From Isoetes taiwanensis (lineage: Eukaryota; Streptophyta; Lycopodiopsida; Isoetales; Isoetaceae), in NCBI GenBank assembly GCA_021234155.1, contig JAJEKV010000213.1, positions 124,001 through 188,000 of the forward strand: a DNA stretch of 64,000 bases, read 5' to 3'. The position numbers and the translations under genes are program-made. Positions 2,936 through 51,862 of the stretch are shown one piece after another. A model generated the notes under the pieces. The model did no database searches. It saw only the letters and a list, made by a program, of their open reading frames with translations, and was not told where the DNA came from. The stretch's first letter is position 1, and every line of letters starts with the position of its first letter.

Positions 2936-3470
2936 GGAATGCCTTGAAAGCGCATCTGCTACCACATTGAGCTTCCCCGCTTGTAGACTATATCAAAGTC
3001 ATACTCTTCAAGGAACTCCATCCACCTTCTCTGCCTTTAGGTTGAGGTGTGGTTATGTGAATATACATACCGAGGCTCACGATGGTTCAGATCCAATTGG
3101 AACTTCCTTCCCAACGGATAGTGCCTCCAAATTCTTAATGCTCTGACAACCGCAAGCAATTCCTGATCGTGCGTTGGGTAGCGCGTTTTGGCCGTCGTTC
3201 ATCTTCCTGGAATCATACGCTACTACACGCTCTTCTTGCATGAGCATTGCCCCAGTAGCTATCTTTACTTCGGGCCCGCCGCTACAAGCTTGTCTTTCTC
3301 CGGGTCCGCAGTGGTTAAGATCTGGGCGGTTGTTAAAGCTTCCTTCAACAATTCGAACCGCCAAGGCTTTCTTGTGCCAGGCTCAGCCCAATCTTTCACC
3401 TTCTACCCCGCTTCTCGTCAAGTCTGTTAATTGGGCCGCTATCTTAGCAAAGTTCTTCACGAACTTCTCA
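2936..3470 (-). pseudogene. pol: RNase H domain of gypsy pol
   Basis: The minus strand contains ATGAMLMQEERVVAYDSRKM then ND, the start of the gypsy RNase H (typical DAS-x-x-AIGAVLMQ...VAYESRKL). Further on comes SVGKEVPIGSEPS, the remnant of the YLLGKEF-x-LRTDH segment. The domain ends with VVADALSR at about 2965-2940, the conserved exit of gypsy RNase H. Frames change several times, so no single open frame covers it. It would degrade the RNA strand after reverse transcription. Confidence 0.8.
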
Positions 3471-4150
3471 GAGTACCACTACTGCTAGGAGGAAACTTCG
3501 ACTTCATGCACATTCTTTGGGCGCCGCCGAATAATGGCGGCTTCAATCTTTGCGGGGATCCGCCGAGATGCCTTCTCACGAGATCACATGACCGAGATAC
3601 TCCACCTTCCCCTCGCTATGGCGGCACCGACAACTTGGCGCATAACCGGTGCCTCCTCAACTTCTCCGGCCTCTTCTCAAGTGTTGTCTGCGTGTTCTTC
3701 AAGGGATCTGCTATACACCAAAATGTCATCAAAGAAAACAATCACAAAGGTGTCTAAAACTCCTCGAAGATGTCGCTCATGAGCCTCATGAACGCCGCGG
3801 GGCATTCGATAGTTTAAAAGGCATTACCGCGGAACTCATAATGCCCATACCGCTCTCAAGGCTGGTCTTATGGATATCTTCTTTCTTTATCCCGATCTGA
3901 TGATAACCGACCTTAAGTCAATTTTGGAGAAGACCTTTGCACCTTGGAGTTGATCCATCAAGTCATCCGATCCGGGAGCGATACTTGTTCTTAATGGTGT
4001 GCTTATTCAACTGCGCTATAGTCTATGCACATTTTAAACCGCCATCCTTCTTCTTAACGAAGAGAATGGGCGCTCCAAATGGCGTAAACACTAGGTCTAA
4101 TGAAACCTAGGTCAAGCAGCCCCTCGCAGAATCGCTTCTTTAGCTCCTCG
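3471..4150 (-). pseudogene. pol: Reverse transcriptase domain of gypsy pol
   Basis: On the minus strand, motif A region reads DDLMDQLQGAKVFSKIDLRS (about 3975-3910) and the catalytic box reads VIVFFDDILVYSRSLEEH (about 3755-3690), the F-x-DD form typical of Ty3/gypsy. Downstream KVEYLGHVIS, then EGISADPRK is the connection segment. The pieces lie in different frames with scattered stops. The domain copies the element RNA into DNA from the tRNA primer. Confidence 0.85.
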
Positions 4151-4264
4151 ACAACTCCCCGTTGTCATTCTATATGGAGCCTTGCTTGTTGGCTTTGTTC
4201 CTGTTCGAAAAGTGCTATCTTTCGACTCCCTTTATAAGGAGGGAGCTGCTTGATCTCATCCGAA

Positions 4265-4669
4265 AGAGATCATGGAACTCCTCGCGGATCAGCTTTAGCT
4301 ATTTGCTTCCGCAACTTGTCGAGCACCTTGTCTTCTTTGCTTCCTTCCGATTCGCCACTAATCTCAAGCTTGAAAATGTATGCCACTTGCTCACTCTTGA
4401 TGCACTTGGAACAGCCGTTTAGAAGACATACACCGCATGATGGGAACAACTTCCTTGCCGCGCTATATCTCAATAATCTTGCCGTCGGTGTTGGGAAGGT
4501 CACCTTCCGCAAGGTTCCCATAATCGATAATGGCCCCCGCTGGTCCAAGGTACTCCATTCCTATAATCAAGTCGACTTGCCAATGCCCATTACTTTAGTG
4601 TTTCAACTTCCCCATCTGGGGGATATTAATCCCCGAGTCGCAAGTCGAAGGTCGGTTAATTCTCTCTCT
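4265..4669 (-). pseudogene. pol: Retroviral-type aspartic protease segment
   Basis: On the minus strand a frame reads WQVDLIIGMEYLGPAGAIID, then YGNLAEGDLP, matching the C-terminal half of gypsy proteases (DVILGMDWL...A-x-ID). The N-terminal D-S/T-G motif was not found. A possible remnant is STCDSGINIP, close to the insertion point of the nested LTR element at 4670. If that element is removed, the frame continues into the gag side at 8311. Confidence 0.7.
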
Positions 4670-5150
4670 TGTTAGATAGACGTTAGTGGCATAGGCCACA
4701 TGTCATCATAGTTAGTGGCACATGGCCACATGTTGTCATCATATAGGGTTGGGGTTTGCTCACTATATAGAGCCCCTTGGGCATTAAGTCCCTAGTGGCA
4801 TTTGGCACCCATGTTGTCATTTGGGTTAGGGCCTCATTTTGAGAAGGTTTTAGCTCATTGTGAAGGTTTTTTCACGTTTTGGGCCTCATTTTGTGAAGGT
4901 TTTAGCTGTTTTGGAAGGTTTTAGCTCACGCCTCTCATTTTGTGGAGGTTTCAGCTCACGTTTTGGGCGCCTCATTTTGGCAATATGATCCACTTTGTTC
5001 ATTTCTTGGCATTTGTGCCTGTTTGTGTTCTTGGGTTTCCTCCCCCTTTGTTTTGTCATTCTTGAGCATTTGTGGCAGCCTTGTTGCATCCGGCTGACCA
5101 TGGTGGTGCTTTGCTGACAAGGTGCATGCCAAGAACCCCATATTTCAACA
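4670..5150 (+). repeat. 5' LTR of nested element
   Basis: Runs TGTTAG...TTTCAACA and is about 25 bp longer than the right LTR. It contains several copies of a short phrase around GGTTTTAGCTCACG / GGTTTCAGCTCACG, which also repeat in the right LTR. Confidence 0.85.
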
Positions 5151-7843
5151 CCGGGCGCCCGTCGATGCGGGTTCGCTCAAGAATTTCTTGATCCTTCTTT
5201 GTTATCTGTTGTCTTCTTTGCTCTCATGGTTCTTGATCTTTGAAAACTTTGTGTACACTACTCTAAACTCTTTTCCCTTTGCCCAACCAGGCTGAATTGT
5301 CCGGAGGCCTTCTTTGTTCATTTGCCCAACCGGGCCGAATTGTGCGGAGGCCCTTTGTCTTTCAAATCAAACCCGGTGATGATAAGCCGGTGATCCAATC
5401 AATCTTGTTCAAAAGCTGTTTTCAAAACTACGTTCTTCAATTGCGGCAAGCACGATTAATACGTTTACGGCATTTTGGAGTGGTGATGACACTTCATTCT
5501 TGAAAAAATTTTCAGAAAAATGGGTTTCTCACAAGCTTTTTTCGTCCCATTTACGTGCGGAGGGGCGTTTTCTTTGAAAAAGCGCCAAAAATATCATGCT
5601 TTTTCTTTGCCTCACGAAAGCTTTTTTTTCGTCCCTTTTTGGACTTTTTGCTGCTTTTTGTTTAAAATTTCCAAAAATATCCTCTGTTTTCTTTGTCTTA
5701 CGTCATCTGCAAGAAACTATGGGTTATCATACAATCAGCCTGTTTGAAGCGTGCCAAAGGAAGGCTCTTGTTACTCTTGTTACAAATTTTTTCAACACTC
5801 TTCAACAATCATCTTCAAGAAAGCTTGGTTCAGCATTCAAAGCATTCAAAGCATCTCGCAACAACAAATTATCAACACATCGCACAACAATCTACATTTC
5901 GGATCATGCGAGTTCTTGTTCTAAATTTTCAAGAGGGCCGACTTGGGCTAGCCCCCATTCCTCTGTTCAAGCCTATAGAGGCTGCGGCAACAACTCAATC
6001 GATCATCAAGCACATCCACGAAGACTACGGTCGAATCTATCGCAAAAAGCTTTACAACAATCAAATCAACACAACATTTCAGGTATTAAGTTTTTAGGAG
6101 GGCCAGCACCTTGGGCTAGCCCCTTTCCTCTGTTCAAGCACACAACAAAAGAAAACGGCGGCCGGTTTATTTTTCAAGCAAGCAAAGATCTCTCGGCAGG
6201 ACATTTGGCGCTTCGGTTTGGCTGGTGCGCAACATCCGCAAACAAATCTTCAAGTCGACTCATACGCAGCAACAAACACGGCATGCACAAAAAAAAACAA
6301 GCACAAAGATTAACATGGGTATGCCTCGGATTCGATGTCTCCGGATCTAGTATTTTCAAGAATCGATGTTGTTTTTCACCGTTGAAGCAAGAAGCACAAA
6401 CATCCCACTAGCGGGCGGGCGCCTTCAAATCCAACCACCGGTTCGGTCTCTGCATTACGGCAAATCCGGCCACCATTTGCAGCGAATCCGATAAATATAG
6501 CAACTAAGCGTGTTGCTCCAACCAAATCAGCTGCCCTTGTGCGAGAATCATGCAAATATCTACCATCAAACTCGTCTTCCAAGCAAAAACCGGCCCAATA
6601 GCTCGGATCGGCGCCATTCTTGGAACTCCAAAGAACCCACTATGTTTTCAAGCAAATCGGCTATTGAGCCCGGGATGCCAAGATTCAAAACAAAAACAAT
6701 CGAACTTCTCGGCTATTTCAAGCCGCTAGGCCATTTTGACACCAATCCGGCCGCCTCTCAGATTCAAGCGGTACATCAACAAAATCGAGTTACAAACTTC
6801 AGTAGCGGACCCATTTTTGTTGTTCTTGTTGCGGCCAGACCGCCTGGTGAAAGCGAGTAAAAGATTTTTAGGGCAATTTTTTGTTCACGGCTAAGATTTG
6901 GCCGCCCAGCTCTATGGCCCAGATACACTTACATTTTAGGGCATACACTTTCTCACGGAAGTTCATGCAACGGCCCACCCTGCAACACTTTCATCACGCC
7001 CAACCGGACAGCGGCTAGAACAACTTATTTGGTCAACACTTATTTTCCCTACTCAACCACGGGCCATCCGCGCTTATTTGGACCACTTTGCAATTTTTCC
7101 ACTCTTACCCACGGGCCACGCAGAGGTACTTGAAATCTTACCCACGGCCCGCCACGCTTGAAAATCATTTGCCCATAGCCACTCACGCACAGGTGGAGCA
7201 CGCTTATGCACGCCCACGCTAGTCATTTTACCCACGCTGTTAACACACGCACATGTTTGTCACAACCAACCACGGGCCTTGTTAAAACCCACGCCCCACT
7301 ATTTTTTGTTATGTGCATACTCTAACACTTGACACATTTGGCCCACGGTAACTCCTGCAACTTTTTTCCAGCCCACCCACGAGCTACACTTTGGCAGCTT
7401 TTTTTGGTCACGCCCAACCAAGGGCCCCTCTTGCCAAGCATGGGCCCACGCCCACGGTTCACACTTTGAAATACTTTTAGCAACACTTAAGGGCCACGCT
7501 TTGAACCCTTGCAAGTTTTTCTCACGCCCACCCACGGGCCATCCTTACACGCTTGTCCACGCCCGTGGTTGATATTTGGTGCTTACATTTTTGAAGACCC
7601 TCTATCATTATTTTAAGTTGTATTTTTGCCACTATTGGTTACAATTGCCTTCCCCATGATATAAGGGATGGCCATCATTATTTATTGCCCCTATGTGATC
7701 TACACGGCATCAACATTCTTTTTGATCTAATTCGTCACCAACACCTTGAAGAAGACTTTTTGGCAAATATTTTTGTTACTTCCCCTCCGTTTTTGTAAAC
7801 ATGTCAAACCTAATATTATAAAGGTTTGCATATAGTGAGGTTT
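5151..7843 (+). other. Interior of nested element, no supported gene
   Basis: Open frames exist (the longest 271 codons at 5596-6411) but none shows a domain, and their composition looks like chance in low-stop DNA. The block AGGGCC..CTTGGGCTAGCCCC..TTCCTCTGTTCAAG occurs twice (about 5932-5972 and 6096-6140). Between about 6890 and 7560 a motif near CCCACGGGCC recurs many times in slightly changed form. The sequence after the 5' LTR (CCGGGCGCCC) does not match a tRNA-Met PBS. Confidence 0.6.
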
Positions 7844-7855
7844 GGTGGGGGGGAG
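7844..7855 (+). promoter_or_regulatory. Polypurine tract of nested element
   Basis: GGTGGGGGGGAG ends directly at the TGTTAG start of the right LTR, which fixes the element orientation as plus. Confidence 0.85.
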
Positions 7856-8310
7856 TGTTAGCCCCTTGGGCTAAGTCATAGACGTTAGTGGCATAGGCCA
7901 CATGTCATCATAGATGTTAGTGGCACATGGCCACATGTTGTCATCATATAGGGTTAGGGGTTTGCTCACTATAGAGAGAGCATTTCCCCTCATTGTGAAG
8001 GTTTCAGCTCACGTTTTCCCCTCATTTTTGAAGGTTTCAGCTCACGTTTTGGAGCGCCTCATTTTGTGAAGGTTTTAGCTCACGTTTTGGAGCGCCTCAT
8101 TTTGTGGAGGTTTCAGCTCACGTTTTGGAGCGCCTCATTTTGGCAATATGATCCACTTTGTTCATTTCTTGGCATTTGTGCCCTGTTTGTGTTCTTGGAG
8201 TTTCCTCCCCCTTTGTTTTGTCATTCTTGAGCATTTGTGGCAGCCTTGTTGCATCCGGCAGCCATGGTCTGCTGCAGCAAGGTGCATGCCAAGAACCCCA
8301 TATTTCAACA
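7856..8310 (+). repeat. 3' LTR of nested element
   Basis: Begins TGTTAGCCCC after the PPT and ends TATTTCAACA. It is followed by CTCT, the target duplication also found before the left LTR. Confidence 0.87.
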
Positions 8311-9684
8311 CTCTGTATCTATTGCGGCAAAGATATGACACTCACCCTGAATGTAGTCGCGGGCTTTCGCCGCCGCCGTCGAACGAACCAGTGTCCCAAT
8401 CCCCAATTCGCTAGCCGCACTCATGGCGTAAGGGGCGCCACGGCCCTATGGCCTGGCTGGAAGCACGAAGCAAAGCCGCTTTTCTATGCACTCTGTCTCT
8501 TTTCTTTGGGCATCCTTTTGAAAAAGGATCGCCCTTGCTTTGGAGTAGTTTGACCCCCCCCGCTTGTCCTTGAAGGACACGTGCTTCTTCTCTCGCTGTT
8601 TCCCTTGGTTGCCACCATATGGGGGCTCTAGCCGGACACGATCGGGTCTCTAGGGCTATAGCTCCCTCGTCGCCTTGCCTTTGTCCCGAAATGCTGCTTT
8701 CGCCTCGCTATCCCGAGGTCCCGTCCCTTGCAAGCTTATAGCCTTGGACTCTCGCCGATCTTGTCTTGGGGTTTATTGCCCTCACAAGCTTGCTTGGATC
8801 TCCTCATTCGACCCCTCAATATAGCTTTCTCTGCATGCTTCTCACCCAATTTCGGCACATCTGACCTCGGCCTCATGAATTCCCTCGTATACTTCTGGAC
8901 AGATTTGTTGCCTTCTTTGCAACCAATAGAGAACTGCTGCATCATACTAGACTTATGTTCCCTCGGGACGAATGGCGCTTTGAAGGCTTTAGCAAACTTT
9001 ACGAACTTACAAGCATCCCCGCAAGCCATGTGCCTTTGCATAACCCTTCCACCAAATCCGTGCGGCTCCTTTCAAGTTGGTTGTTGCCACTCTTCCTTTG
9101 TCTTTATCCTTCATGCCATAAGCATTGCCGTACTCACTCATCTCGTCCAGCCATGCCTCTCGCTTCTAATCGACTGTTCTCCCCGAGCTGTTTCGATTCG
9201 GGCCTTCCATACATTGCCCGGTCGCGGAATCTACCTTCTTACGGTAGTCGAGGCCCCGTGTCCCTTTGTCGTCCATCTGGGGTGTTTCTCTGCCTTCCCT
9301 CTTGGTGTTCCTTTGCCTTCCATCTGTTGTTCGTCCGGGCCCGCTCTTCCTCTTCCTGAGAGTGAGTCTGAGTTCGAGCTTGAGTCGGAGGGATCCGAGC
9401 TGGGGGATCTCCTTCTCTTATTCCTCTTCTTGTCCCTTCCCGTTTTCCGAGCTGATGCTTGTGGCAATTGAGCATTGCCCACCGAACCTCGCCTCCGCTT
9501 GTGTGGCTATGTGAGCCTTTATCTGTTCTGTGTCCGTCCTCATCCGGGATATCTCCTCCTCCGGGGTCATGGGTTCTATTTCTTGAATAAGTTCCTTGCG
9601 GGGGGGTGGTCCGGGCGGGGTCTGTTCTTCCCTAAGGTCTTGGCGTTGTCGCTCGCCTGAGCCTAGGCCTCTAACTGCATACAC
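8311..9684 (-). pseudogene. gag: Gag polyprotein of chromovirus (frameshifted)
   Basis: From an ATG at 9684 the minus strand gives a charged N-terminus (MTPEEEISRMRTDTEQIKAH). The Retrotrans_gag core follows in other frames: KDKDKGRVATTNLKGAARIW (KV-A---L-G-A--WW pattern), then KSVQKYTREFMR, then SDVPKLGEKHAEKAIL. It would form the nucleocapsid particle. A clear CCHC zinc knuckle could not be found near 8400-8700. Frame changes near 9418, 9231 and 9041 break the gene. It runs into the protease if the nested element is removed. Confidence 0.75.
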
Positions 9685-9853: not shown

Positions 9854-11387
9854 CTAACTAGTCTTGAAATCGCCCGGAAGACGGGTTGTCCTCAAGGAAC
9901 TTCTTAACTTGGGCGTTCTCCTACCGAATGACCCAAGTTCTGAAGACGCTTTGCTCGACGAGCCATTCCGCAAGGCTCTCGCCAAGTCTTCCACTCTGCG
10001 CGGTCGGATGTGACGGCCGCTGCCACCGCTTAATCTCGCCGCCGTCGATGAGGTATGGCTTAAGTCGAAAGAGGTCGAAAGTGCCATTGCTCTCTTGACT
10101 AGGACAAGATAGTCGACATTTGGCGCTATCGCGAGCATGCCGCCGAAGCCTGAGAGTGCAATCAGCATGAACACTCCTTCCTCACCTCTGGGGCTGAACT
10201 TGCGGTATATCACCGCTACTCTCCCGTCCATCAGCAGCGGCAAGTAGTACCTCGGGGATGCAATGGATTTGTCGCGCCATTGTTGATTCTCCACTTGTTT
10301 GGCCTCCACCACGGCCACCATGATGATTCGGTCGACCTCGATCCCGGTGAGCTCCCGTGCATCTTCGATTGTGGAGTCAACTCTCCTGAGGTCAATTCCT
10401 GCTCCTCTTGTGGGAGGTGGTGTTGAGGGACTCGGCATCAGGATGCTAGTGGTCTTGCCTCTGATCCCCAACCGTTTTTGAATGGCGAGGAACTCTTCTT
10501 CAGACGGCAGGTCTCTGGTCTCCATGACTTGCCTTATGTCGCTATATGCCCGGATGCTCCAAGTCGCCCCATTGTAGGTGTCGGCTTCTCTGACTTGAAG
10601 CGGGAAGTCTGAGACTCCCCGGACGATGAAGTCGTCCATGTCGGTTTGCCGCAGCTGGTGGAGCAGTTCATCCAATCTGATCTCCCTCTCCCTGCATTCG
10701 GGGAGGTTCTAGATGTCGCTGAGAAGTAGGAACTCCTCTCCGTTGATGATGATAGGGGCTAGGCTTGTGATGCCTAGCCCGAGTGGGGGAGCAACTCTGA
10801 TGCTCTGCCGGCTCCGCTCGAAGTTGATCAGCTCCTGCTCTGCTTGGCGCCGTTCTTCATCCGAGTCGAGCTCCGTGTATTCCTCGTCGTCCGACTCCTC
10901 TTCTTCTTCTCTTGCTTCTTGTTCCTGCTGATACTGCAGAAGCATCTGCTCTTCTGCTTGGGCTGCTATGGGGTCCACCTCCATCGGAGGGATAGAGGTT
11001 GCCCCCATTGGGTTTTCGGCGCGGTGGGATAAGAAGATAGCTAGGGCAGCGGTGTAAGAGAAATACTTGGTCTGTTGGTCGTCGGGGACCATGTAGTCCT
11101 AGCGATCTGCGCCTTGTTGGTTAGGTACTTGGCGATGTTGGGGACATCGCCAAGGTCTTTTGAAGGGATGGCCGGGGAACGAAATATCCTATGCAAGGGG
11201 GAACCTGAACAAGGGAGGGTCCTACCCTAGCTTGAAACTCTGCTAGCACTTGCCTATATGCCGGGGTTGCATTTAGCGTAGCTTGGATATCAATTTCTTT
11301 CCCAAAGACTTGGAAGATGTCGTTGACATCCGCCTCGGCAGCATGGGCACTGGCGCTGTACCATCGCCCGAAGTCAGCAGTGGCCAT
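9854..11387 (-). CDS. Accessory gene X of the chromovirus, unknown function
   Basis: Starts at ATG 11387 (MATADFGRWYSASAHAAEAD), about 115 bp downstream of a TATA box, and ends at 9854. The N-terminal frame (to about 11121) changes frame into a second part (11092-10709) with an acidic run (EEEEESDDEEYTELDSDEE). The third and longest part (from about 10690, 273 codons from the first ATG) contains DMDDFIVRGVSDFPLQV and YYLPLLMDGRVAVIYRKFSP then GFGGMLAIAPNVDYLVLVKR. I do not recognise the family: no membrane segment, zinc finger or catalytic motif is visible. It lies between the H3-like gene and gag in the same orientation. The promoter arrangement matches that of the H3-like gene. Sharp frame changes may be consensus errors. 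Confidence 0.6.
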
Positions 11388-11501
11388 TGATCTAGCAAAG
11401 AAGGGGGTAACAGACGGATGCGAAGCATTTAAGGAGCTGGAAGATCGCCTAAGCAGTTGGAGAGCAAATTTGGGGTGGTGCTAAATGAGAAATGGGGGAC
11501 T

Positions 11502-11510
11502 TATTTATAG
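11502..11510 (-). promoter_or_regulatory. TATA box of accessory gene X
   Basis: The minus strand reads CTATAAATA, a good plant TATA box, about 115 bp upstream of the ATG at 11387. Two hairpin repeats lie upstream. Confidence 0.65.
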
Positions 11511-11687
11511 AATTGGGGGAAACCCTAATTTTTGGATGATCTAGAATTTACTGAGATTAGGTGATTCTAATCTATTAAAGAGTGAAATTGCAAGTTTGAA
11601 GACTACTTCTAGGGTTTGAGCATGCTAAGAACAACTAATGAACCTATTGCAACAACTTGGAGATCATTTGGTGAAGAAATGGTACGA

Positions 11688-11757
11688 GGTCTCACACGTT
11701 GCGCCCAGCCCGAAATTGAGAAAGTCATTTCCTGTCCTGGCGCGACGTGTGAGACAT
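11688..11757. repeat. Hairpin repeat copy A
   Basis: Begins GGTCTCACACGT and ends ACGTGTGAGAC, an 11-bp perfect outer stem. Inside, TGCGCC pairs loosely with GGCGCG and a TTGAGAAAGTCA segment forms the apex. It is one of four copies in the chromovirus leader region. Confidence 0.85.
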
Positions 11758-11886
11758 GGGTTCTAATTGGGCTAAACTTAATCAATTGGAATAATCTAAG
11801 GCTGTAATTCTACTAAACTCGTCGAGTTAGGCAGAATTGACCCCTTATTTGGTCGATTTGGAGCTGTTTTGGGCATTTTTGGGCAT

Positions 11887-11956
11887 GGTCTCACACGTTG
11901 CGCCCAGCCCGAAAATGAGAATCTCATTTTCTGTCCTGGCGCGACGTGTGAGACAT
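11887..11956. repeat. Hairpin repeat copy B
   Basis: Same outer stem as copy A (GGTCTCACACGT / ACGTGTGAGAC), 199 bp away from it. The apex here is a clean AATGAGAATCTCATT palindrome. Confidence 0.85.
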
Positions 11957-12099
11957 CGTCTCCTTTTTGCTCAAAAGCTCCAATTTGACTAAAACAAAAG
12001 CTAGAATTCTATAACTTAACTTAATTAAGCTAGATCAGACATGTTATTCACTCCCAAAATTCTTTATATTAACAAAATTTTCAGTTATTTACAAAATCT

Positions 12100-13340
12100 T
12101 CAAGGGCGTTCCCCCTTGATGTGACTGGCAAGATGCATATCCTGCTTCATGAGGGTGACCCTCTTTGCGTGTACCGTGCAGGCCGTCGAATCTTCAAAGT
12201 GCTGCACTATTTTTGCCTCTGCTGCCTCCTGTAAGCACAGCAACATTTCATCCGTCACCCGCATGTCTGTATTATACTCCTGCATGACCTCGCGGACCAA
12301 ACGTTGAAACGGTGCCCGGGGAATCAAGAGTCCGTAGCTCCTCCGAAGTGCGGTTCCTTGAGGGCTCATTCTCCAGCTTCTTCCTGCCAGCCCGCTTCTT
12401 TCCTGGTGCTCTGGGAGGCTTGGGCTTTGGTGGGGGTGGCTTCAGAGTCTGCTTCGGGGGTACTCCACCTTCGACTGCCCTCACCCGATGCTCCTGAAAG
12501 TAGGCATTATATGCCTCCCACTTCTCCATGTAGATGCTGTGCTCCTTAATTCTCTTCTGATAGACCTTGACAGGGTCTATCACATATGCCTCCCGTTGTG
12601 GTCGTGGGGCTTTAACCCTATCCCACGTCGGGAAAGGTGGGGGCTTCGCTACCTGTCCCGCCTCCTCCTGCTCCTGTGCTACCTTGGGGCACTTCCTTCT
12701 CTACAGGCGGGGGTTTTGACGAGCTCGCTCCTTCCGTGCAGCACGTAGTCCCTCGTCCGGAAAACCGTCGGTGGGAGGCGGGGGTCTCTTAGCCTGATGG
12801 TTCGTTGATGTTGATCCGTTCCAAAACGCGACCTTCCGCGACCTTCCTTTTGCCGCCTTAATGGCTTTTGGCCTTCCCTCTTCTTAGGCTTCTTTGGCGG
12901 TGGTCGGGTCGTCTTCCAAAACCTCTTAGATCTTTGCTCCCGGCGGCTCTTTGGCCATTACTGGCGATGAAGCGGCGCCAAGATCTTCTTCTGCCGGGGC
13001 TAAGAGTGTTTGCCTGCTCTTCTCTCCCTTGTTTCCTCCACGTAGGTGGGTCTCGGTAGGGGGTTGCTCTGGGGTGTTGGCCCGCCTATGCGCTCCATTT
13101 GCTCCCTGCTTCTTCTCTCCTCCTCTAGCGATCTCTCAAGGATTGATTGCATGATGTCGGCCCGATTAGGTCCTCTATGAGCTCCGTATAGTGGCTAGAT
13201 CGATCCTGCATCCCATTTCGAAGAAGATTAAGCCTTCATGGAGAAAAGGCGTTCTCGAGAGACTCTCTGAAAGAGGCCGGGCGGGGTTGGAGGATCCGCT
13301 TCGGCCAGGCTTCCTGGCACCATTTGGTGCGGGCCATCAT
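12100..13340 (-). CDS. Histone H3-fold protein with long basic N-terminal extension
   Basis: The last 89 codons (12369-12100) are clearly related to histone H3. [20 protein letters not shown] aligns with H3 alpha-1 and loop 1 ([20 protein letters not shown]), LCLQEAAEAKIVQHFEDS with alpha-2, [20 protein letters not shown] with loop 2 and alpha-3, and the end is GERP instead of GERA. The alpha-N part is shortened (GTALRRSYGLLIP). Loop 1 has canonical H3 length, not the longer CENH3 form, although LLIP and VTLM recall CENH3. Upstream, in frames broken by shifts, is a Lys/Pro/Arg-rich extension (for example PPPPKPKPPRAPGKKRAGRK and DPVKVYQKRIKEHSIYMEKW). The proposed ATG (13340 or 13337) lies about 100 bp after a TATA box. 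The gene sits between PBS and gag, in element orientation. Confidence 0.8.
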
Positions 13341-13440
13341 TTGGTGGTTCGTCGATCGGAGCTAAGCGCCGGAAGATCGCCTTGGCGGACACGAGCAATT
13401 TTTCTAAGGCAAGAACGTGGAAATGGGAGGGGTCTAGGTC

Positions 13441-13449
13441 TATTTATAG
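13441..13449 (-). promoter_or_regulatory. TATA box of H3-like gene
   Basis: The minus strand reads CTATAAATA, identical to the TATA box of accessory gene X and at a similar distance (about 100 bp) from the proposed ATG. Confidence 0.65.
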
Positions 13450-13522
13450 GGGTCAATTTTAGGTCAACTTTTAAACTACCTTTTTGGGTTGCCTAAAACA
13501 TCTAAAACACCTAATTAAGCAA

Positions 13523-13596
13523 GGTCTCACATCGTTCTTGCCCAGCCCCGAAAAATGAAAAAGTCATTTCCTGTCCTGGCGCGACGTGTGAGACAT
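13523..13596. repeat. Hairpin repeat copy C
   Basis: Starts GGTCTCACATCGTT and ends GCGCGACGTGTGAGACAT. It shares the inner phrase TCATTTCCTGTCCTGGCGCG with copy A. It lies about 75 bp upstream of the TATA box of the H3-like gene. Confidence 0.8.
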
Positions 13597-13728
13597 CGTG
13601 GGACCCACTACTAAATTTTGTACTTTTGGAACATATAACATGCTAATTCTACTGATTTTTAGCTCTAATTTAGATTTATCAAGTTATTTTACTGTAATTT
13701 ACAACTTTTTGGTGTGTTTAAGCTGAAT

Positions 13729-13795
13729 GTCTCATTGCGTTGGGCCAAATTTAAAATGAGAATCTCATTTCTCGGCAGACGACACGTGTGAGACC
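13729..13795. repeat. Hairpin repeat copy D (diverged)
   Basis: Starts GTCTCATTGCGTTGGGCC and ends ACACGTGTGAGACC with the same AATGAGAATCTCATTT apex as copy B. It is 206 bp from copy C, close to the A-B spacing of 199 bp. Confidence 0.75.
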
Positions 13796-13988
13796 ATTCC
13801 CTACTTTTTGGATGTTGGCTCACCAATTTTAGTCTTTTTACGTTTTTATTCATTTTAACTGTTACTAGCTTAGCATCTACCACAAAAATGAGAAAAAAAT
13901 TTCCCCTTTTTCGAGGTTTAAGGATCCTATCAAGTTAGTACTACTGGGCACATGGCCAGTGCTTTTGCTCTTGGTCACCAAGAACATT

Positions 13989-14000
13989 GCTCTGATACCA
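13989..14000 (-). promoter_or_regulatory. Primer binding site for initiator tRNA-Met
   Basis: The minus strand reads TGGTATCAGAGC, the standard tRNA-iMet PBS of plant LTR retrotransposons, one base after the LTR end. It proves the element orientation and the LTR boundary at 14002. Confidence 0.95.
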
Positions 14001-14001: not shown

Positions 14002-15667
14002 TGTGACGTCCCCTACTCGTATACGGTGCACTCACCGTATACAAACAGGAGTTCATCCCCCATACCAGCTCCATGCCTGTGGGGCCCTCCACATAACACC
14101 GCAACCGTGGACGGGTTCGATGGGAAGAGTGAAGGGTCATTTACCCCATCTCCCTCAGGGTCTACCTAGCTGCGGAAGCGTAAACATACATGTCAGTATA
14201 TAACATAAGCACATAGCCACCTCGAAGGGTGGTCCATCACATCTGCATAAACAAGGTGAGCACAATACATATGGGGAGTTCTACCCAAGGCTCAGACTCA
14301 AGGGAATGACTGACGGCTTGGGTCTCCAGAGATCATTGCAGACAGAATTCATGGCAATGGATTTGGCTGGCATAAGAACATGGCATAGGGTTGTCCACTC
14401 CATCCGCCCCTCCTGTGCACACTTTGCAGAGTAGGTTGAAAAGTGTTGGGACCCGACTGTAGCCCGCCGGATGCATAGCCAAAAGGGCTATTCCTGGGTT
14501 CATCCTCCCAGTTCCGATGGGGCAGGTAGGGATCACTCCCTCCAGAGGTCTACATGCTGACTCAAGGTGACTAGAGGGCCACTGCCCTTCTTCGACTGAA
14601 CCCACTGGAAAGTGAACACCACTTCACGGGTGTCGAGCCCATGCCTTGCCCACACGCAGTGGCAAGCCATCAGACCTAGTCACAATGATCCCTGGTAGGC
14701 TTTACACACCAGAGGGATCGTTCAAGAGTCAGGACATGAACCTCCTTCTCAGCCAGTCTGGCCCCTTCACCCACAACCCGGTGTGGCTGCTGTACACAGG
14801 CCGAATCTATAGTGTGCTAGAGAGGCTACTCTAGGAGCATCTACTACCAAGCTTTAGGTCTCTACCCCCCTTCCCAATACAAGGGGTTCATAGAGAAACA
14901 TCATCCACATACATTACAGAAGAACTAAAGAACTATATCTAATCTACATCATAGAGTTAGGTTCTTTAGTTAGAGGCTGGCATCTAGAGATCTAGAAGGC
15001 TGCTATGGCCAATTTAATAGGCTAAACCTACTGATTCTATGACTGAAATAGGGTTTAGACTATCTAATTGGCCAAATACCTGATCCTTGAGTGGCTCCTC
15101 CTGACCTGAGCTCGACCATCCTGCTGAAACGCTCGAATCAAGGGAAACTAATGGTGGAATTCTCCCAGGCAGAGTCTGGGAGGCGGTTTTGGCTGTTGAG
15201 GCAGCCAAAACAGAGTTCTAAAGCCCTAGAAACGAAAATGGGCAAGTTAGGGTTTCTCACCCTAAATAGACAAGGGGGGTGGCTAGGGTTTCCAATTATC
15301 CCCTTTTGGCATGTGGGATAATTGGAAATGAGCCCACTTGCCTTTAAGGGCTAGGTGGCCAAATGTGCCCACATGGAAATGTGTGCACATTAATGAATGT
15401 GTACATTGGAAAATGTGCACATTAATTGCACCTATGGGTGTGGCCCACTTGGCATGAAATGGCCATATGGGAAAATGTGCACCTAAGTGAATGTGCACAT
15501 TGTTTAATGTGCACATTAATAAATGCACACTCCTTGCGCGTTGCCCCCTAGGGCTACTAACCTAGCTACACGTTGGCGTACACGTCGGGTCGGGTGGGCG
15601 GTATGCTGCGTGACGAGGCAAGATAAAGATTATGCCCCTGGGGCGATATCGCGGTTGGAACGTCACA
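14002..15667 (-). repeat. 5' LTR of chromovirus, complete
   Basis: Length 1666 bp. On either strand it starts TGTGACGT and ends ACGTCACA (inner end) or starts TGTGACGTT and ends CGTCACA (outer end), with TG...CA termini. The PBS follows one base inside. The outer flank is TGGAC, the candidate target duplication, whose partner lies left of the window. Confidence 0.93.
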
Positions 15668-16359
15668 TGGACGGATGAATTCTGTGGACTCATTGTATTG
15701 GGAGGGGGGGTAGAGACTTAAAGCTTAGTAGTTGATGCTCCTAGCTAGTCCCTCTTAGTGCATTACTAGATTTCGGCCTGTGCACAAGAACCACACCTGG
15801 TTGTGGGTGAAGGGGCCAGACTGGCTCAGAAGGAGGTTCGTGTTCTGACTCTTGACCGATCCCTCTGGTGTGTAAAGTCTACCGAGGATCAATGTAAACT
15901 AGGTCTAATGGCTTGCCACTGAGTGTGGGTAAGGCATGGGCTCGACACCCGTGGAGTGGGGTTCACTTTCCAGTGGGTTAAGTCGAATAAGGGCGGTGGC
16001 CCTCTAGTCACCTTGAGTCAGCATGGAGATCTCGGGTGGGAGTGATCCCTACCGCCCCATCGGGCGGGAGATGCAACCCGTGAATAGCCCGCTTGGCTAT
16101 GCATCCGGTGGGCTACGGTCAGTCCCAACACTCTTCAACCTACTCGCAAAGTGTGCAATGTGGGGGGCGGATGGAGTGGACAACCCTATGCCATGTTGTC
16201 ATGCCAGCCAAATCCATTGTCATGATTCTGTCTGCAATGAACTCTGGAGACCCAAGCCGTCAGTCGTCACCTTGGGTAGGAACCCATATGTATTGTGCTG
16301 ATCTTTGTCTATGCAGATGTTGATGTACCACCCTTCGAGGTGGATATGTGATGATGTTA
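15668..16359 (+). repeat. Older inverted LTR of the same family, left part
   Basis: Reverse complement of the chromovirus LTR (equivalent to about 14893 down to 14190) with many substitutions. It starts exactly where the chromovirus ends, so the chromovirus inserted into it. It is cut on its right by the TIR transposon. Confidence 0.85.
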
Positions 16360-16364
16360 ACACA

Positions 16365-16385
16365 GTTGCATATTAAACGGGAGTG
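16365..16385. repeat. Left terminal inverted repeat
   Basis: Inverted copy of 19707-19727 with two mismatches. Its inner part AAACGGGAGTG also forms a perfect 11-bp stem with CACTCCCGTTT at 16392-16402 (6-nt loop), so the end can fold as a local hairpin. Confidence 0.85.
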
Positions 16386-16799
16386 TTGCAGCACTCCCGT
16401 TTGAAGATTCCCTTCCAAAAAATATATCAACCATGCAAAACGGCTCTTTTAGGGTGAAGTCCAAAAAATCATGGTGATTACAATTTAATATGTGCTATTT
16501 TAGCAAAAAATTATTTTTTTATCATAGGGTCAACATATCAACACTTTGAAATAGCCCTTTTTAGGGGTTAAGTCCATAACATCATCATGATTACGATTTA
16601 GCATATGCCATTTCCACTATATTTATTTTTTCTGGCAGTGGGTTATTGGGAACACATGACAAAATGAGGTGAATTTGTAATAGATTAGAATTTAAAGTAA
16701 ACAAACGTTGCAGATGAACGTTTTAAGAGTTCAAGGAATACTACTTTTATGTCTAAGTGGCTACGGAATTCAATTAAACAAATAAATGACTTTAATCAT

Positions 16800-17860
16800 T
16801 GCCTTGATGAGTTGCAGCTATTTTATAAGATGGCAGAGGTGAAATATTCTTTGCATTGATTCATTGAATGCTGACCAAATGGTTGAACAATGACTATTTT
16901 TGTGCTTGTGGGAATTTAAAGGCAAAGAAGTTCTTGAGAAATCGAGCAAATTCTCCATCACCTGGGCTGAATTTAAAGCCTAAGAAAATAAATTCGACAA
17001 GAAAGATTTCGTTCAGACATCTCAATAAGTGTGAGCTCTCTTACAATTCTCTACAATTATATTTTATCCTTTGCTGAGGTGATCTTTATTTGCAGTTCTC
17101 AATGCACAAGAATGTCAAGAAAAGTATCATACAGTGGTATCTGAACCTTACAATGTCTACATCAATGCTTGTGAGAATACTGACATGCCTGGTGGAACAA
17201 GGATGAGGCTGAGGACAAGGATCCATGTGACATCACCTCAATAGGGACATGTGTTCCATTGACTCAAATGTTAATAACAGTATTGATATGCTTGGTACTG
17301 CAGGTTTATATGGAACTGTCTTAAAGGAGACATATGTTCCAAGCACATTAGTGACTCCTTCAATGAAGTCATCACTATCTGATGGATCTTCATGTAGGTT
17401 GAGCCGGCATCATGCAATGAGATTCTTCATGTAGGTTGTCGCTCTAGATTCTCAGCCCTTGAAAGGTAACTATTCTCAAGGAGACAAACCAGGTAGTTCC
17501 TGGCCCTGCATGAATCATCGAGATGCAAATCTGGACAAAAATATTATAAGGTCCTTGCCAATCCGTGAGAGCATGTGTCCTGATGGTGGTGCTGATAATG
17601 ATGACGGTGGTGGCTATGCTCTTTCTGTTAGCACAACAGACTATCTCTTTTCTCCAGTACCCAATTCAGGGCTTCAAGTTATTGGTTCAGAATTGTGCCT
17701 AAGTAAGACACCAACCAGATGTGAAGGCATGGACCAGATAAGTTCTTGTGACATTCTTGCTGTTGCAACTTCAAGTAATCATCTGGTTAGCAGGGAATAT
17801 ATCATCTCTTGCTGTATCTATGGCCATTGTGTATGTCTGGTTTTTGCTGAATTGACATGA
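16800..17860 (+). pseudogene. Gene-like, intron-bearing fragment inside TIR transposon
   Basis: Not recognised. An open stretch (16868-17026, with FCACGNLKAKKFLRNRANSP) ends at a donor-like AAG/GTGAGC. A pyrimidine tract with TTTGCAG (to about 17095) precedes a second stretch reading VLNAQECQEKYHTVVSEPYN. The AQECQEKY phrase recalls the end of a SANT/Myb helix, weakly. A third open frame (17459-17860, 133 codons from its ATG) has PDGGADNDDGGGYALSVSTT. Frames between the pieces do not join cleanly. This looks like host gene sequence captured by the transposon. Confidence 0.4.
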
Positions 17861-17869
17861 AAATCCATG

Positions 17870-18810
17870 CTACATATGATTAATTCAAAAGTAAATTGCA
17901 TACCCAAACAGCAAATATAAAGAGTAAAGTGGCTCCAATTATACGATTGGAGGATGGAAATTGCACTGTAAAAAAGTTAAACTTCATCATTTCTCCATCA
18001 ACTCTATAGCCGAAAGAACACAACGTAAGGATTTTTTCTGCATGTTCTAGTCATAAGTTCTTCCAAGGCAAGATTTATTCCAAATGAAAATACTGCTTCT
18101 AACTCCTTGACTGAACCTCAATCCATAAATACCTTTAGGTAATAAAAATACTAGTGCATCTCCAGACCTGCGAAACATTCCAGTCCTAGACTTTCTTGTG
18201 GATCCAAAATAGCTTCAGCATGAAGCTTTGATGTCTGGGAGGTTTTCTCAGACCCAAATCCAGCCCTAAGAATGGATTTCGGCTTGATTCAAAGTAGTAG
18301 CTCTTTGGCCTAATCCATTGGAATGATGCCTACATCCGAAATGCCCTGCACAAGCACATGAAAGTTTGCATAACAGTAGGAGCGTCTGCATAGAGAAAAT
18401 ATAAGAAAAGAAGAGGCTAACAATGCAAAATATGGAGGTCTCGATACCGTTCAAAGCAGCTTGTTTGACATGCCTCACCATAGCCGAAACTTCCTCAATC
18501 CGCCATCGTCCCTTGCTCCTTATTAACTTCTGCATATGGCTTGAAGCCTTTACACATCAGATGTGGCGTCCAACTCCTGATAGGATTCTGGCATCCGACC
18601 TACAATTTGATTCTAGCATCCAACCTACAATAAGAGCTACCGTAATGAAAAAAATAATTTTGAAAGATGCTTAGCCAGCGCCTTAGGTTAACCTTTAGCC
18701 AATGCCATAGGCTTACCCAATCTGAAACTGAAATGGTGGTGTGAGCTCCAGAGAGAAAGATCGCCAGAGCGAAAAGGGCAAAAAAAACACGTCTCTGCCC
18801 TTCTGGGAAA
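17870..18810. other. Transposon interior without recognisable genes
   Basis: AT-rich, short open frames only, nothing recognised. Near 18591-18640 the phrase GCATCC(G/A)ACCTACAAT occurs twice. Confidence 0.5.
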
Positions 18811-18816
18811 AAAAAA

Positions 18817-18851
18817 TGTATTCTGGAATACAAAGTGTATTCCGGAATACA
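18817..18851. repeat. Pair of GTGTATTCCGGAATACA palindromes
   Basis: Two copies of the 16-bp palindrome TGTATTCCGGAATACA (one with a C-to-T change) at 18817-18832 and 18836-18851. Confidence 0.9.
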
Positions 18852-19224
18852 TTTCCCTCTTATGATTTCGTACCAAGGTCCAGTATCCCTAGTCTTATAA
18901 ACAAAAAAATCAAAATCCCTTTATTATTTGAAACTATGTCCCTGTATCCACACAAAACAAATAAAAAAAATTGAAAGGTCATCCAAATAAATTGAAAATA
19001 CCAAAAAATCTAGTCGTTGTTGGTTTGTTTTTCCCTTTCGCTAATCCCTTCATTATTTAAAACTATGTTCCTGTATCCTCACATAAAAAACAAATAAAAT
19101 CGCAAGGTCATTCAAATCAATTGAAACAAAAAAAAACTGCAAGGTCATTGAAAATGCCGAAAATCCCAAAAGCCTGAAAAATTGCAAGATCACTGTTGAT
19201 GCTCAAAAACTTGTACAGCAAAAG

Positions 19225-19365
19225 TGTATTCCGGAATACACTTTGGATTTTGAGAAAAACCAAAAGTGTATTCTGGAATACACTTTGACTTTCAAGAAAA
19301 GCAAAAGTGTATTCCGGAATACACTTCTGTTATCCTCGAATAGCAAAAGTGTATTCCGGAATACA
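19225..19365. repeat. Array of four GTGTATTCCGGAATACAC palindromes, period about 42 bp
   Basis: Copies at 19225-19240, 19267-19282, 19308-19323 and 19350-19365, start spacing 42, 41 and 42 bp. The flanks extend the symmetry to AAAGTG...CACTTT in the first two. It sits 340-480 bp inside the right end of the TIR transposon. Confidence 0.92.
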
Positions 19366-19706
19366 ATTTTGGTACTTTGAAATATTATATCATTAAAAAA
19401 TGACTCATTGTAACTTCAAAGTATCTTTTTGTGGAATACAATCCAAGCTAACAAAATGTTGTGTAGGATCGACACTTAAATTAGTGGTTTTCTCTAAAAA
19501 CACACTTCAGGTAAATTCTAACTGTTAGGAAAAGTGTCACTTTGACACAATCAATTTTCTCTTTGCACAAAAAAATGAGTGATTTTGGGGGGGTCAAAAT
19601 TCAATTTTATGACCAAAATAAATTTTTTACCTCATTTTAGCTCTTTTTTTGAAAAAAAAAAGGGGAATCTTTGAGGAATATTCCATTTGCTCCCGTTTCG
19701 ATGATT

Positions 19707-19727
19707 CGCTCCCGTTTAATACGCAAC
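19707..19727. repeat. Right terminal inverted repeat
   Basis: Contains GCTCCCGTTT. A second direct copy of that 10-mer lies at about 19689-19698. Confidence 0.85.
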
Positions 19728-19733
19728 CTTGTT

Positions 19734-19941
19734 TGTTATGTACTGACATGTATGTTTACACTTCCGCAGCTAGGTAGACCCTGATAGAGACGGGGTAAAA
19801 TGACCCCTTCACTCTTCCCACTGGGACTCGTTACGGGTGCAGTGATATGTGGAGGGCCCTGTATCAGCATGGAGCTGGTATGGGGGATGAACTCCTGTTT
19901 CTATATGGTGAGTGCACCGTATACGAGTAGGGGACGTCACA
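19734..19941 (+). repeat. Older inverted LTR, right part
   Basis: Continues the LTR after the TIR transposon and ends GGGGACGTCACA at 19941, the family LTR end. No PBS follows. LINE sequence begins directly, so this is a solo or truncated LTR. Confidence 0.85.
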
Positions 19942-19942
19942 G

Positions 19943-20181: not shown

Positions 20182-21480
20182 ATGAACAAAAAGATTGTGA
20201 GTTGGAACGTTCGTGGTGCGCTCGTCACCCGCGAAGAGAACGAGAGTGGCATTGGCGGTTCGTAGGTTGGATTCAGATATCTTGTGTCTTCATGAGCATA
20301 AATGTCACAGGGGGGACTCTCGGGCATTGTTGGATATGTTTGGGCCGCAATACGCTGCTGCGGTTGCCATCTCTGGGGCCTCTAAGGGTGGGACTGCCAT
20401 TGCGTGGAAGATGCATGTGCAGGTGACTTTTACCATGGCTGACCGTTGGGGCAGGTGGGTCATCATCAAGTGGCAGGATGGGCCACGCGAGTGGGGGATT
20501 GTGAATGTCTATGCCCACAACAGCGGCGGGAGAGAGGGGCGTTGTGGGCGTCGTTAGGACATAAGATCGCATCCTTGAGGGTGGATGTGGCTTGGCTGCT
20601 GTTGGGCGACTTCAACATGGTCGAGTCCGTTCATGATAGGTGTGGCAGAGGTGCGAAAGTTGTGCAGGGTTTTGAGCGGCAGCAGTGGGTATTGTTGCTG
20701 GACTCCTTGCATCTGGCAGAGGCGGCGGTCGACTCTTCATTCACGTGGTGTAATCGATGGGGGGGGGCGGTCGGGCGACGCCGACACCTACGTGATGCTA
20801 TGCTAATACCCTAGCAGCGGATCAGACGCCTCAGCTCAGGCGGACGAACATTCTATCCACCGCGATTTCTGATCATTTTCTTAATCTTCCCGTGGAGCCA
20901 TCGCGCAGCCGCATCGAGCCGCGACTGCGGTTCGTTAAATATCGCCATCTAAAGGATGCTGATTTCTCTTGGGGATGCCAAATGATTTGGTTTAGCGACC
21001 TTCGATAATTTCGATGGCGGGAATAGTGCGTGCCTTAGCTCAAAGTTAAGGCGCATTCGCCAAGTCGTGGGGCAGTCGGAGAGCACGTCAAGAGAGGGAG
21101 GTGTTAGACGCGTTGTATCGCGAGTTGGCGGATCTGAGGTCTCAGCCATCTGATGGGGTGCGGGAGAATGAGATTTTGCATTGCATTGCAGCAGATGAAT
21201 CCAGGAGGGCTGCTCAGGCAAGGGTGAAGACAGGGATCACCTAGTTGCGGGAAGGGGACACTAATTCTCGAATGTTCTTCAGGGCGGTGCGGCAGAAGAA
21301 GTATGCAGCCTCTATGTCGTCACTGGCATTGGCATTGGCTGATGGTCGTATTCTGAATTCGCCGGTGGACATTAAGCAGGCAACTTTTCATCACTTCTCT
21401 CAGTTCTTCCAGGAGAAGAGATACCCTTACACAGACGTAATGGAGGAGATTGTTCTTAGTAGGTGTCGGTAGAGAGGAGG
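20182..21480 (+). pseudogene. LINE ORF2 endonuclease domain
   Basis: Starts MNKKIVSWNVRGA, the SWNVRG entry of APE-type LINE endonucleases. LDSDILCLHEHK follows in another frame (the L-Q/H-E-x-K motif) and LLLGDFNMVESVHDR (the GDFN motif) near 20600-20640. At least three frame changes occur up to 21480. The segment 21245-21472 (MREGDTNSRMFFRAVRQKKY) is the linker to the RT. The enzyme nicks the target for target-primed reverse transcription. Confidence 0.85.
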
Positions 21481-22674
21481 CAGATGCTGCAGCGTCTGCT
21501 CACAAAACAAGAGCTTGAGGAGGCTTGCCGTGCCTTAGCCCCTCACAAATGTCCTGGTCTGGATGGCATTCCGGTTGAGTTCTTCCAAGAGTATTGGGAT
21601 TGGGTGGGGGACTCGGTGCTGCAGACCTATCAAGATCTGCTTCAGGCAGAAGCGTTGGACTATAGGCTCAACACGGGCTGCATTTCGTTGATACCGGAGG
21701 TGAAGGAGCCAGCTGGCATTTCTGATTGGCACCCCATCACCCTTCTGTCGGCAGTTTACAAAATTATTGTGAAGGCACTTTCGCTTAGACTGCAAGTTGT
21801 CTTGAAAGAGACTATTAGTACCATGCAGTCTGGCTTCATTCCGGGCAGGCAGATTCTCAGCAATGTAGCAGCAGCATTCGATGGCATTCATTGGGCACGC
21901 AGAACAGGTCAGCAGATTGTGTACTTGAAGCTGGATTTCGCAAAGGCCTATGATAGTGTTTGCTGGACGTTCTTGAAAAGGATGATGTTAGCCTTTGGAT
22001 GTGGGGAGGCCTTTACAGCAGTGGCTATGAAGCTCTTAGTGTCCGCCAGAGCAACCCTCCTGTGTCACGGCGAGTCATCTCCGATATTTAGGGTGGGGCG
22101 TGGAGTTCGCCAGGGATGCCCTTTGGTGCCCTTTCTCTTCACCATTGTAGCGGAGGCCCTCTCGCAGTTGTTGACTTCCGCACTGGAGGCTGGTGTAGTG
22201 GAGGGGCTGAGGATGGCAGATGGATCGCAGCAGATTGGGAGTCAGTATGCTGACGATTCATTCCTCTTCCTGCAGGCTGATGAGGGGAAACTGTTAAACA
22301 CGAAGGAGCTACTGGACACATTTTCCCTTGCTTCTGGCTGCCTCATGAATTGGTCAAAGTGCTCGGCACTGTGGCCGGTGGCTGAGCCCATGCCGGTGGT
22401 GGTGTCCCAATTCCCATGGCGAACGCAGCCGCAGGGCACGTGCTCTAGGCTTTTGGGTATTCCGTTCGGCATTGACATCTCAGCGTCAGCGGTGTGGGAG
22501 GACATTCTGGTAGGACTGCGTCGGCATCTCAATTGGTGGAAAGGGGGGAAGCTATCCATGGCTTGGCAGGGTCACAGTGGCGAAGTCCGTCCTATGATCG
22601 ACTCATATTTATATGGCCTCTATCATCCTGGCGCCGGAAAGCAAGGTGCAGGAAATCTCTTCTATGGTTCGTAA
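21463..22674 (+). pseudogene. LINE ORF2 reverse transcriptase
   Basis: A long clean frame of 403 codons. Motifs in order: LAPHKCPGLDGIPVEFFQEY (entry), WHPITLLSAVYKIIVKALSL, SGFIPGRQILSNV, LKLDFAKAYDSVCWTFLKRM (motif A), GVRQGCPLVPFLFTIVAEAL, QYADDSFLF (catalytic ADD box, within motif C), LLGIPFGI. All are hallmarks of L1-like RT. After about 22610 the reading moves to another frame (22613-22936: ESKVQEISSMVRNFVWGG). Of the coding segments in the window this one is among the least damaged. Confidence 0.93.
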
Positions 22675-28457: not shown

Positions 28458-28461
28458 CTTT

Positions 28462-42110: not shown

Positions 42111-42262
42111 CATGGTGCAACAAGTTCATGTAACTTTGAAATATGTTTTAAAAAAATAACAAGTTAGCTTAGTAAATATTTAAATAGATGTGCTTTGGAC
42201 ATGTGGCCAAAAGGCACTAGGTTACAGTTAAGATTAAATATTAGAAAACACAAAAAAATAGA

Positions 42263-42492
42263 TGTTGGGGATTATCCCAACTTAGGATTGCAATGTTGGA
42301 CGGCATAGATTAATTGTTTGGCATTATAAATAGAGAAAAGAAACGTTGTGTATGTTGAGGAAAAACTTTGGAATAAAAATTGTGATGATGTTTTCTCCTT
42401 GACGTTGCTTTGAGGTTTGTGTATGGCGTGTTGCTTATGTTAATTGTTAAACGTCAAGATGTTTTAAATGTTTTATAACAAATAACATAACA
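42263..42492 (+). repeat. LTR-like segment at the end of gypsy-2, copy 1
   Basis: Starts TGTTGGGGATTATCCCAAC, a common plant LTR opening, has TTATAAATAGAG as TATA box, and ends AATAACATAACA. It is preceded by an A-rich purine stretch. A matching 5' LTR was not found near 25 kb, so the assignment is tentative. Confidence 0.5.
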
Positions 42493-43453: not shown

Positions 43454-43460
43454 CAAAAAA

Positions 43461-51847: not shown

Positions 51848-51862
51848 GCACAGTATTACAAG

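Follow-up and report, generated by a model that had tools for sequence, protein, structure and literature searches.

Core histones rank among the most conserved proteins of their hosts, and the silencing of retrotransposons works through the tails of histone H3. The locus described here raises the question of whether a retrotransposon can carry an H3 gene of its own, and what such a gene might do. We analysed a 64,000-nt stretch of the Isoetes taiwanensis genome (contig JAJEKV010000213.1, positions 124,001 to 188,000), called the window below. A preliminary description, made from its letters, had placed a minus-strand frame with the histone fold of H3 between the PBS and gag of a chromovirus, in the orientation of the element. 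That this H3-fold gene is encoded by the element is now strongly supported.

The H3 gene and its carrier element

The H3 gene occupies 12100-13340 on the minus strand, starts with MMARTK and is broken by frameshifts and stops, as seen from its frames and from sister copies. Its H3 fold (12103-12345, minus strand) matched Pfam Histone (5.7e-23) and PDB histone H3 chains (E ~1e-22, 80 residues without gaps), which confirms the fold reported for this frame. The best PDB chain was 7ux9_E, a 'Histone H3.3' that we take to be from a plant, with 43/80 residues identical. The ungapped alignment runs through loop 1, which has the length of canonical H3. Upstream of the fold, the histone frame (12103-12441, minus strand) continues off the ancestral frame. 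The first ATG past the TATA box, at 13340, reads MMARTK, the first residues of H3 itself. Over 12100-13342, the three frames of the window copy contain 10, 11 and 14 stops. Because the gene is broken in this way, the 'Lys/Pro-rich extension in shifted frames' noted earlier does exist, but is really a decayed coding region with its MMARTK start at 13340.

The element in the window is a decayed LTR copy of chromovirus type, and all of its parts lie on the minus strand. The 5' LTR (14002-15667, TGTGACG...GACGTCACA) was delimited by self-BLAST pairing with the 3' LTR and by reading its ends, and the 3' LTR (1-1002, self-BLAST) is clipped by the window edge. Within the pair, 14648-15668 and 1-1003 were 93.7% identical, with a K2P distance of 0.061 (58 of 999 sites differ, gaps set aside). 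The mismatches are clustered in about the first 130 bp (873-1002 versus 15538-15667), which suggests recombination, conversion or an assembly error, and not even ageing. The PBS TGGTATCAGAGC (13989-14000, sequence match), presumably of the iMet type, immediately follows the LTR, and a purine-rich tract (1003-1012) lies directly upstream of the 3' LTR. Downstream of the H3 gene, a gag capsid piece (8739-9071, PF03732, E 1.2e-6) and a broken pol (1386-4560) were found, so that the position reported for the H3 gene, between PBS (14000-13989) and gag, proved right. By Pfam, pol comprises RT, RNase H, integrase core and a Tf2-1-like SH3 domain (RT_RNaseH 2.2e-9, SH3_Tf2-1 5e-14; weak scores for RVT_1, 0.0014, and rve, 0.021).

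Gag and pol are parted by a stretch (4676-8311, minus strand) between direct repeats of 81% identity (self-BLAST), which is probably an insertion. The repeats (4676-5151 and 7878-8311) are more diverged than the outer LTRs, an odd observation for a younger nested insertion. On the plus strand, at 15681-19942, there is a related LTR that an insertion (16359-19734) seems to have split and that no PBS follows; it is probably a solo LTR adjoining the element.

Two sister copies supplied the parts lost in the window copy. L021 has a single open frame of 1100 aa, with gag (8.5e-18), RVP_2 (7.2e-9), RVT_1 (9.9e-41) and RT_RNaseH (6.9e-34). L063, the one copy whose 3' part was tested, has a Chromo domain (PF00385, E 1.8e-10) after the integrase SH3_Tf2-1. 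The chromodomain integrase of the preliminary description is thus found in a sister copy; the window copy itself gave no chromodomain score in the profile search, and a chromodomain-like piece was seen there by eye only. With the two sister copies included, the carrier is a chromovirus-type Ty3/gypsy element: it has an LTR pair, a PBS and a purine tract, the order gag-protease-RT-RNase H, and a Chromo domain behind the integrase (L063). Like the plant Ty3/gypsy chromoviruses, it has gag, protease, RT, RNase H, an integrase with SH3 and Chromo domains, and an iMet-type PBS. Unlike them, it carries H3 and a second gene called G2, some 4 kb of additional genes, between PBS and gag.

Copies, selection and age

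The H3 gene was then compared with other copies in the same genome (1.66-Gb assembly, 1110 contigs), using the histone frame of the window as query. There were 8991 candidates; the best 150 were scored, and all 150 matched with E below 1e-43 (at most about 7e-44), the window copy among them. The other 149 were 71-94% identical to the window histone frame. Twenty copies, picked for open H3 frames of 400-488 aa, were read with 10 kb around them. Downstream of H3, all 20 had G2, 19 had gag and 16 had RT/RNase H; because the copies were found through H3 and selected for an open frame, these counts show a stable layout, not the presence of the gene in every copy. In L015, gag lies in an inverted stretch, the sequence following the H3 gene being inverted in part, and in L009 gag was not found. 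The PBS, with at most one mismatch, was present in 17/20 sister copies. Since order, distances and promoter-like regions recur in the 20 copies, H3 is part of the element, and a nested foreign insertion bearing H3 was ruled out. The H3-like gene lies within the ends of a mobile element, of LTR type and not a hAT transposon, and was multiplied along with it. Short-pattern and tblastn searches of the viral_contigs, genome_contigs and phages collections returned no relatives.

The protein of these copies, called family I, was studied in 40 sister copies, picked for open frames of 400-488 aa. In 32 of the 40 it starts with M(M)AxTx and is 398-440 aa long. Its parts are, in order, M(M)ARTKQTARK-P, an acidic stretch, a conserved TWDRV..EHR domain, a basic linker, alphaN and the fold. 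Family I has an H3-type tail with K4 and K9 (MARTKQTARK is exact in 30/40 copies), and of the 33 copies with a residue at position 10, 32 have P in place of the S of H3. The last 128 residues of L009 align to H3 residues 7-134 without gaps (HMMER; Pfam Histone 1.1e-26), as though an insert of some 275-280 aa followed K9. R69, R72, R83, K115, R116, C110, H113, D123 and L126, which we take to be DNA and H3-H3' contacts, are identical in 40/40 copies. At several positions, including 49, 63, 64 and 129, family I differs from host H3; some of these are presumably DNA contacts, and this counts against a nucleosomal reading.

Selection was estimated with NG86 from the 780 pairs of these 40 copies, all picked for open frames. 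The dN/dS was 0.034 for alphaN and fold (pS 0.42), 0.061 for ARTKQTARK, 0.086 for the TWDRV..EHR domain, 0.28 for the rest of the tail, 0.36 for the linker and 0.19 for the whole gene. In eight copies without a long frame (L001-L008, including the window copy; histone frame 72-158 aa), the fold gave 0.09. Purifying selection, which the preliminary description had left to be established, was therefore seen in both samples. Against one reference copy (20 loci, matches below 60% identity dropped), values were 0.09 for RT, 0.15 for protease, 0.18 for gag, 0.21 for RNase H and 0.05 for the H3 fold, a comparison that favours H3, since its frame was selected open. Neutral drift from H3 fits these data poorly: when a plant H3.3 was evolved neutrally to equal divergence (n = 2000), 262 runs were stop-free, 9 were equally conservative on average and 54 had equally many conservative positions. 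A chance match or a host H3 pseudogene was ruled out by the Pfam and PDB scores, the neutral simulations and the dN/dS values.

The conserved start could also serve outside nucleosomes. As a free H3 mimic, the protein would offer ARTKQTARK as bait to host methyltransferases or readers and so blunt H3K9 silencing; the low dN/dS of this motif and its exact retention in most copies agree with that, as does the drift of the tail beyond it. However, a free bait has no need of the fold, which is the most constrained part of the protein, and K9 is missing from the eight proteins read of three further families described below. We consider such a mimic improbable.

In two copies, 5 of 1100 and 10 of 1033 sites separate the two LTRs. 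Five copies whose H3 frame is open had LTR K2P distances of 0.0046, 0.0097, 0.026, 0.030 and 0.046, and with values down to 0.0046 some insertions are recent. L010 was left out of this dating, as it would have been based on 126 nt alone.

The partner gene G2 and the promoter-like regions

The second accessory gene, G2, and the paired promoter-like modules common to both genes had been overlooked in the preliminary description. G2 (9857-11387, minus strand) has an acidic middle and, in the window copy, an in-frame stop and frameshifts; in sister copy L011 it is open over 528 aa. This protein of about 500 aa is encoded beside the H3 gene in 20 family I copies and in one copy of a further family, II (L061). 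Its dN/dS was 0.26 (20 loci against one reference copy). No significant match for G2 was found in Pfam, NCBIfam or PDB, where the lowest E, 0.038, fell in its acidic part, and its single-sequence structure model was unusable. Models of single sequences were too poor in general (mean pLDDT 33 and 46). The G2 proteins of families I and II may be related, as suggested by weak, collinear matches (tblastn 2.7e-8 with the low-complexity filter off; blastp 2e-4 and 4e-4). In shuffles, the score was reached in 0/500 for the C piece and 2/500 for the N piece, and hhalign gave probabilities of only 29% and 2%.

Ahead of the H3 gene, on the minus strand, lie a distal palindromic module (13725-13800, a degenerate copy), a proximal palindromic module (13515-13605), a TATA box CTATAAATA (13441-13449) and a leader motif AGGCGATCTTCC (13371-13382). 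G2 is preceded on the same strand by a distal (11880-11965) and a proximal (11680-11765) palindromic module, a TATA box (11502-11510) and the leader motif AGGCGATCTTCC (11439-11450). The modules were found by palindrome search, and the boxes and leaders by sequence match. The two upstream regions are paralogous, each with a palindrome pair, a CTATAAATA box and a AGGCGATCTTCC leader, and their alignment score was reached by 0/2000 Markov shuffles. Among the 20 sister copies, the H3 TATA box was present in 19, the H3 leader (at most two mismatches) in 19, and both TATA box and leader of G2 in all 20.

The palindromes are about 70 nt long, with arms GTCTCACACGT..ACGTGTGAGAC and RNA z-scores of -2.2 to -7.2, and a pair of them about 200 bp apart stands ahead of each accessory gene. 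Four palindromes were found in 14 sister copies, three in 3, two in 2 and one in 1. Wherever both members were found, ahead of either gene, the spacing was 185-202 bp. Conservation is higher in the palindromes than in most of the adjoining sequence, although one side of the G2 proximal palindrome is as well conserved as the palindrome itself. Random MITEs are an unlikely explanation, given the fixed pair spacing before both genes and the conservation above most flanks. The modules look like element-specific regulatory sites. Judged by comparison of the copies, the results show an LTR family with an H3-variant gene under strong purifying selection and G2 between PBS and gag, preceded by TATA-type promoter-like regions.

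The position of the H3 gene, upstream of gag and in the same orientation, could fit a histone that coats the element's cDNA in the particle or in the pre-integration complex. A net charge of +13 over the 87 residues preceding alphaN (three copies counted) would suit this task. The gene's own TATA region and the kept H3 tetramer and DNA contacts point instead to ordinary nucleosome use, and a generic DNA coat needs no H3 tail. Packaging of cDNA is thus quite unlikely in our view.

Further H3 families, kinship and proposed role

Among the matches listed for a canonical H3 query, 15 were full-length host-type genes at 97-98% identity. These were followed by 135 rows at 72-87%, many of them in frames of >400 aa; there were about 9000 first-look candidates. 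Eight of the 135 rows were read, and in all eight a 300-aa N-terminal part is joined to a fold that has 80-86% identity with H3; the three tested (L050, L053 and L054) scored 2.5e-41 to 3.3e-42 against Pfam Histone. They form family II with six copies and families III and IV with one copy each. The N-terminal domain is common to families II-IV (32-37% identity between groups, E below 1e-44) and has no similarity to that of family I. K9 is absent in 8/8 of these proteins, and family II has a lysine aligned to K27. In the six copies of family II, dN/dS was 0.041 for the fold and 0.143 for the N-terminal part. For L050, the only copy whose context was checked, an exact PBS lies upstream (L060) and a relative of G2 immediately downstream; in the fetched pieces, gag did not turn up. 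By analogy, families III and IV may be element-borne too.

Synonymous divergence (pS) was 0.77-0.86 between families II, III and IV, and 0.85-0.94 against host H3. Because these values are near saturation, the association of H3 with the element looks old. Family I and families II-IV may stem from a single capture: the shared PBS position and G2 favour this, although the fold tree does not show it. The H3 gene might still be a mere passenger, a captured host copy amplified without benefit to the element, as the broken window copy and the known capture of host genes by retrotransposons would allow. This is very improbable, being already contradicted by dN/dS values of 0.034 and 0.09, the repeated layout and the synonymous divergence between families. 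Chance, or the recent single capture that the preliminary description had named as a refutation, is likewise disfavoured against an element-encoded H3 by the layout of the 20 copies, purifying selection, recent insertions with open frames, and the further families.

The fold of family I is 58% identical to host H3 (L013), and those of families II, III and IV are 84-89% identical (one copy each). In the tree, family I forms one clade (100/100) and families II-IV another (84/89), near host H3. A 92/91 branch of this unrooted tree separates family I and the CENH3s of Arabidopsis and rice from the H3s, with long branches and rough bootstrap. Human CENP-A groups with H3 in that tree, and the grouping of family I with plant CENH3s is weak. 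CENH3 is characterized by a longer loop 1, which is missing from the element H3 in its ungapped alignment to H3. Among the 150 rows listed, where intron genes match exon by exon, nothing stood out as a host CENH3. The earlier statement that the protein is not a plain CENH3 fits its loop 1 and its scores, which are nearer to H3, but in the unrooted tree family I shares a side, on long branches, with two plant CENH3s, and it may derive from either.

Family I H3 might accordingly derive from CENH3 or imitate it, and draw the element to centromeres or disturb them. Besides the tree, in which the bootstrap is unsettled, the stretches EIRHFQ and LLIP-APF look like those of plant CENH3, and some chromoviruses are known to target centromeres. 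Against this, loop 1 is canonical, bit scores are 105-106 with host H3 versus 82-86 with CENH3, the protein starts with ARTKQTARK like H3, and families II-IV are plain H3-like. A centromeric role is unlikely on this evidence.

We favour, at a probability of roughly 0.6, a replacement H3 that would anchor an element-specific N-terminal domain in nucleosomes, with G2 as a putative accessory factor. The element's H3 fold would pair with host H4 and enter nucleosomes as a replacement H3, an entry suggested by the nine contact positions identical in 40/40 copies. The long element-specific N-terminal domain would thereby be tethered to chromatin. A nucleosome-anchored effector is favoured because the fold is constant and the N-terminal domains vary by family. 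G2 may act as an accessory factor, perhaps a chaperone. More tentatively, the element might benefit because its own chromatin stays open to expression, or because target chromatin is made to suit its chromodomain integrase. K9 is kept in family I and absent in the eight proteins of the other families, and one tail-mark model therefore cannot cover them all.

The proposal can be set against known systems. Like host H3 and CENH3, the proteins have an H3 fold, and family I keeps ARTKQTARK too; unlike them, they have a 300-aa N-terminal domain or insert and are located in an element. Among the papers listed by searches of the open-licence PMC library, none showed an LTR retrotransposon with a histone gene, in agreement with the preliminary description, which knew of none with an H3; a case in a hAT DNA transposon exists. 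This nearest precedent is H3L of the fungus Pyrenophora tritici-repentis, whose hAT element carries H3L and an ORF of unknown function (PMC3538342). As its description goes, H3L has tail insertions, fully matches neither H3 nor CenH3, has reported ESTs and occurs in 26 very similar copies, for which the authors hold drift possible (PMC3538342). The present element shares with it an H3-like gene, an ORF of unknown function and many copies; it differs from that description in being an LTR retrotransposon with diverged copies, dN/dS of 0.03-0.09 and further H3 families.

Additional sense ORFs are described for plant LTR retrotransposons, among them an orchid Gypsy element whose 2-ODD gene keeps a host-derived domain (PMC7264820, PMC9289625). 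The accessible text of these papers describes no histone gene: 'histone' occurs 0 times in the former and twice in the latter, about marks and demethylation. The accessory genes here are also in sense, but lie between PBS and gag and have their own TATA regions. Bracovirus H4 is a parasite's core-histone variant that may alter host chromatin (PMC9145170). The main text of that review of viral histones does not contain 'retrotransposon' or 'LTR'; the histones it treats belong to DNA viruses, whereas the carrier here is an LTR retrotransposon. A quillwort genome paper describes a Gypsy expansion, and the word 'histone' is absent from its main text (PMC10541799).

As the element copies carry a strongly conserved H3 of their own, a genomic parasite may supply part of the host's chromatin. 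Selection on the fold is about as tight as on RT, and the element could thus compete for the very substrate of silencing. Whether a genomic parasite can build its own chromatin becomes testable, natural H3 variants with 300-aa N-terminal domains are on offer, and caution is needed with histone counts in such genomes, which elements inflate. It is conceivable, although rather doubtful, that an old and recently active LTR clade provides its host with nucleosomal H3s whose tail (ARTKQTARK in family I) is read by the element's own chromodomain integrase. If so, the element would itself write the chromatin mark that afterwards serves it as a target or as cover, and element-type H3 copies (149 besides the window copy and 135 rows of other types, with about 9000 first-look candidates for either query) would be far more numerous than the 15 full-length host-type genes.

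Elsewhere in the window, self-BLAST revealed duplicated blocks at 41537-43782 and 51838-54059 (94%) and at 27845-28461 and 51038-51654 (100%), the latter two lying in long frames that are retroelement-like by eye. Two long arrays of low complexity, rich in GTGG/CCAC, are open in several frames (44134-44895 and 54059-54812). By eye, 21463-22674 contains a LINE-type reverse transcriptase frame (YADD), and 38644-40021 contains paired long frames of a repeat-type protein.
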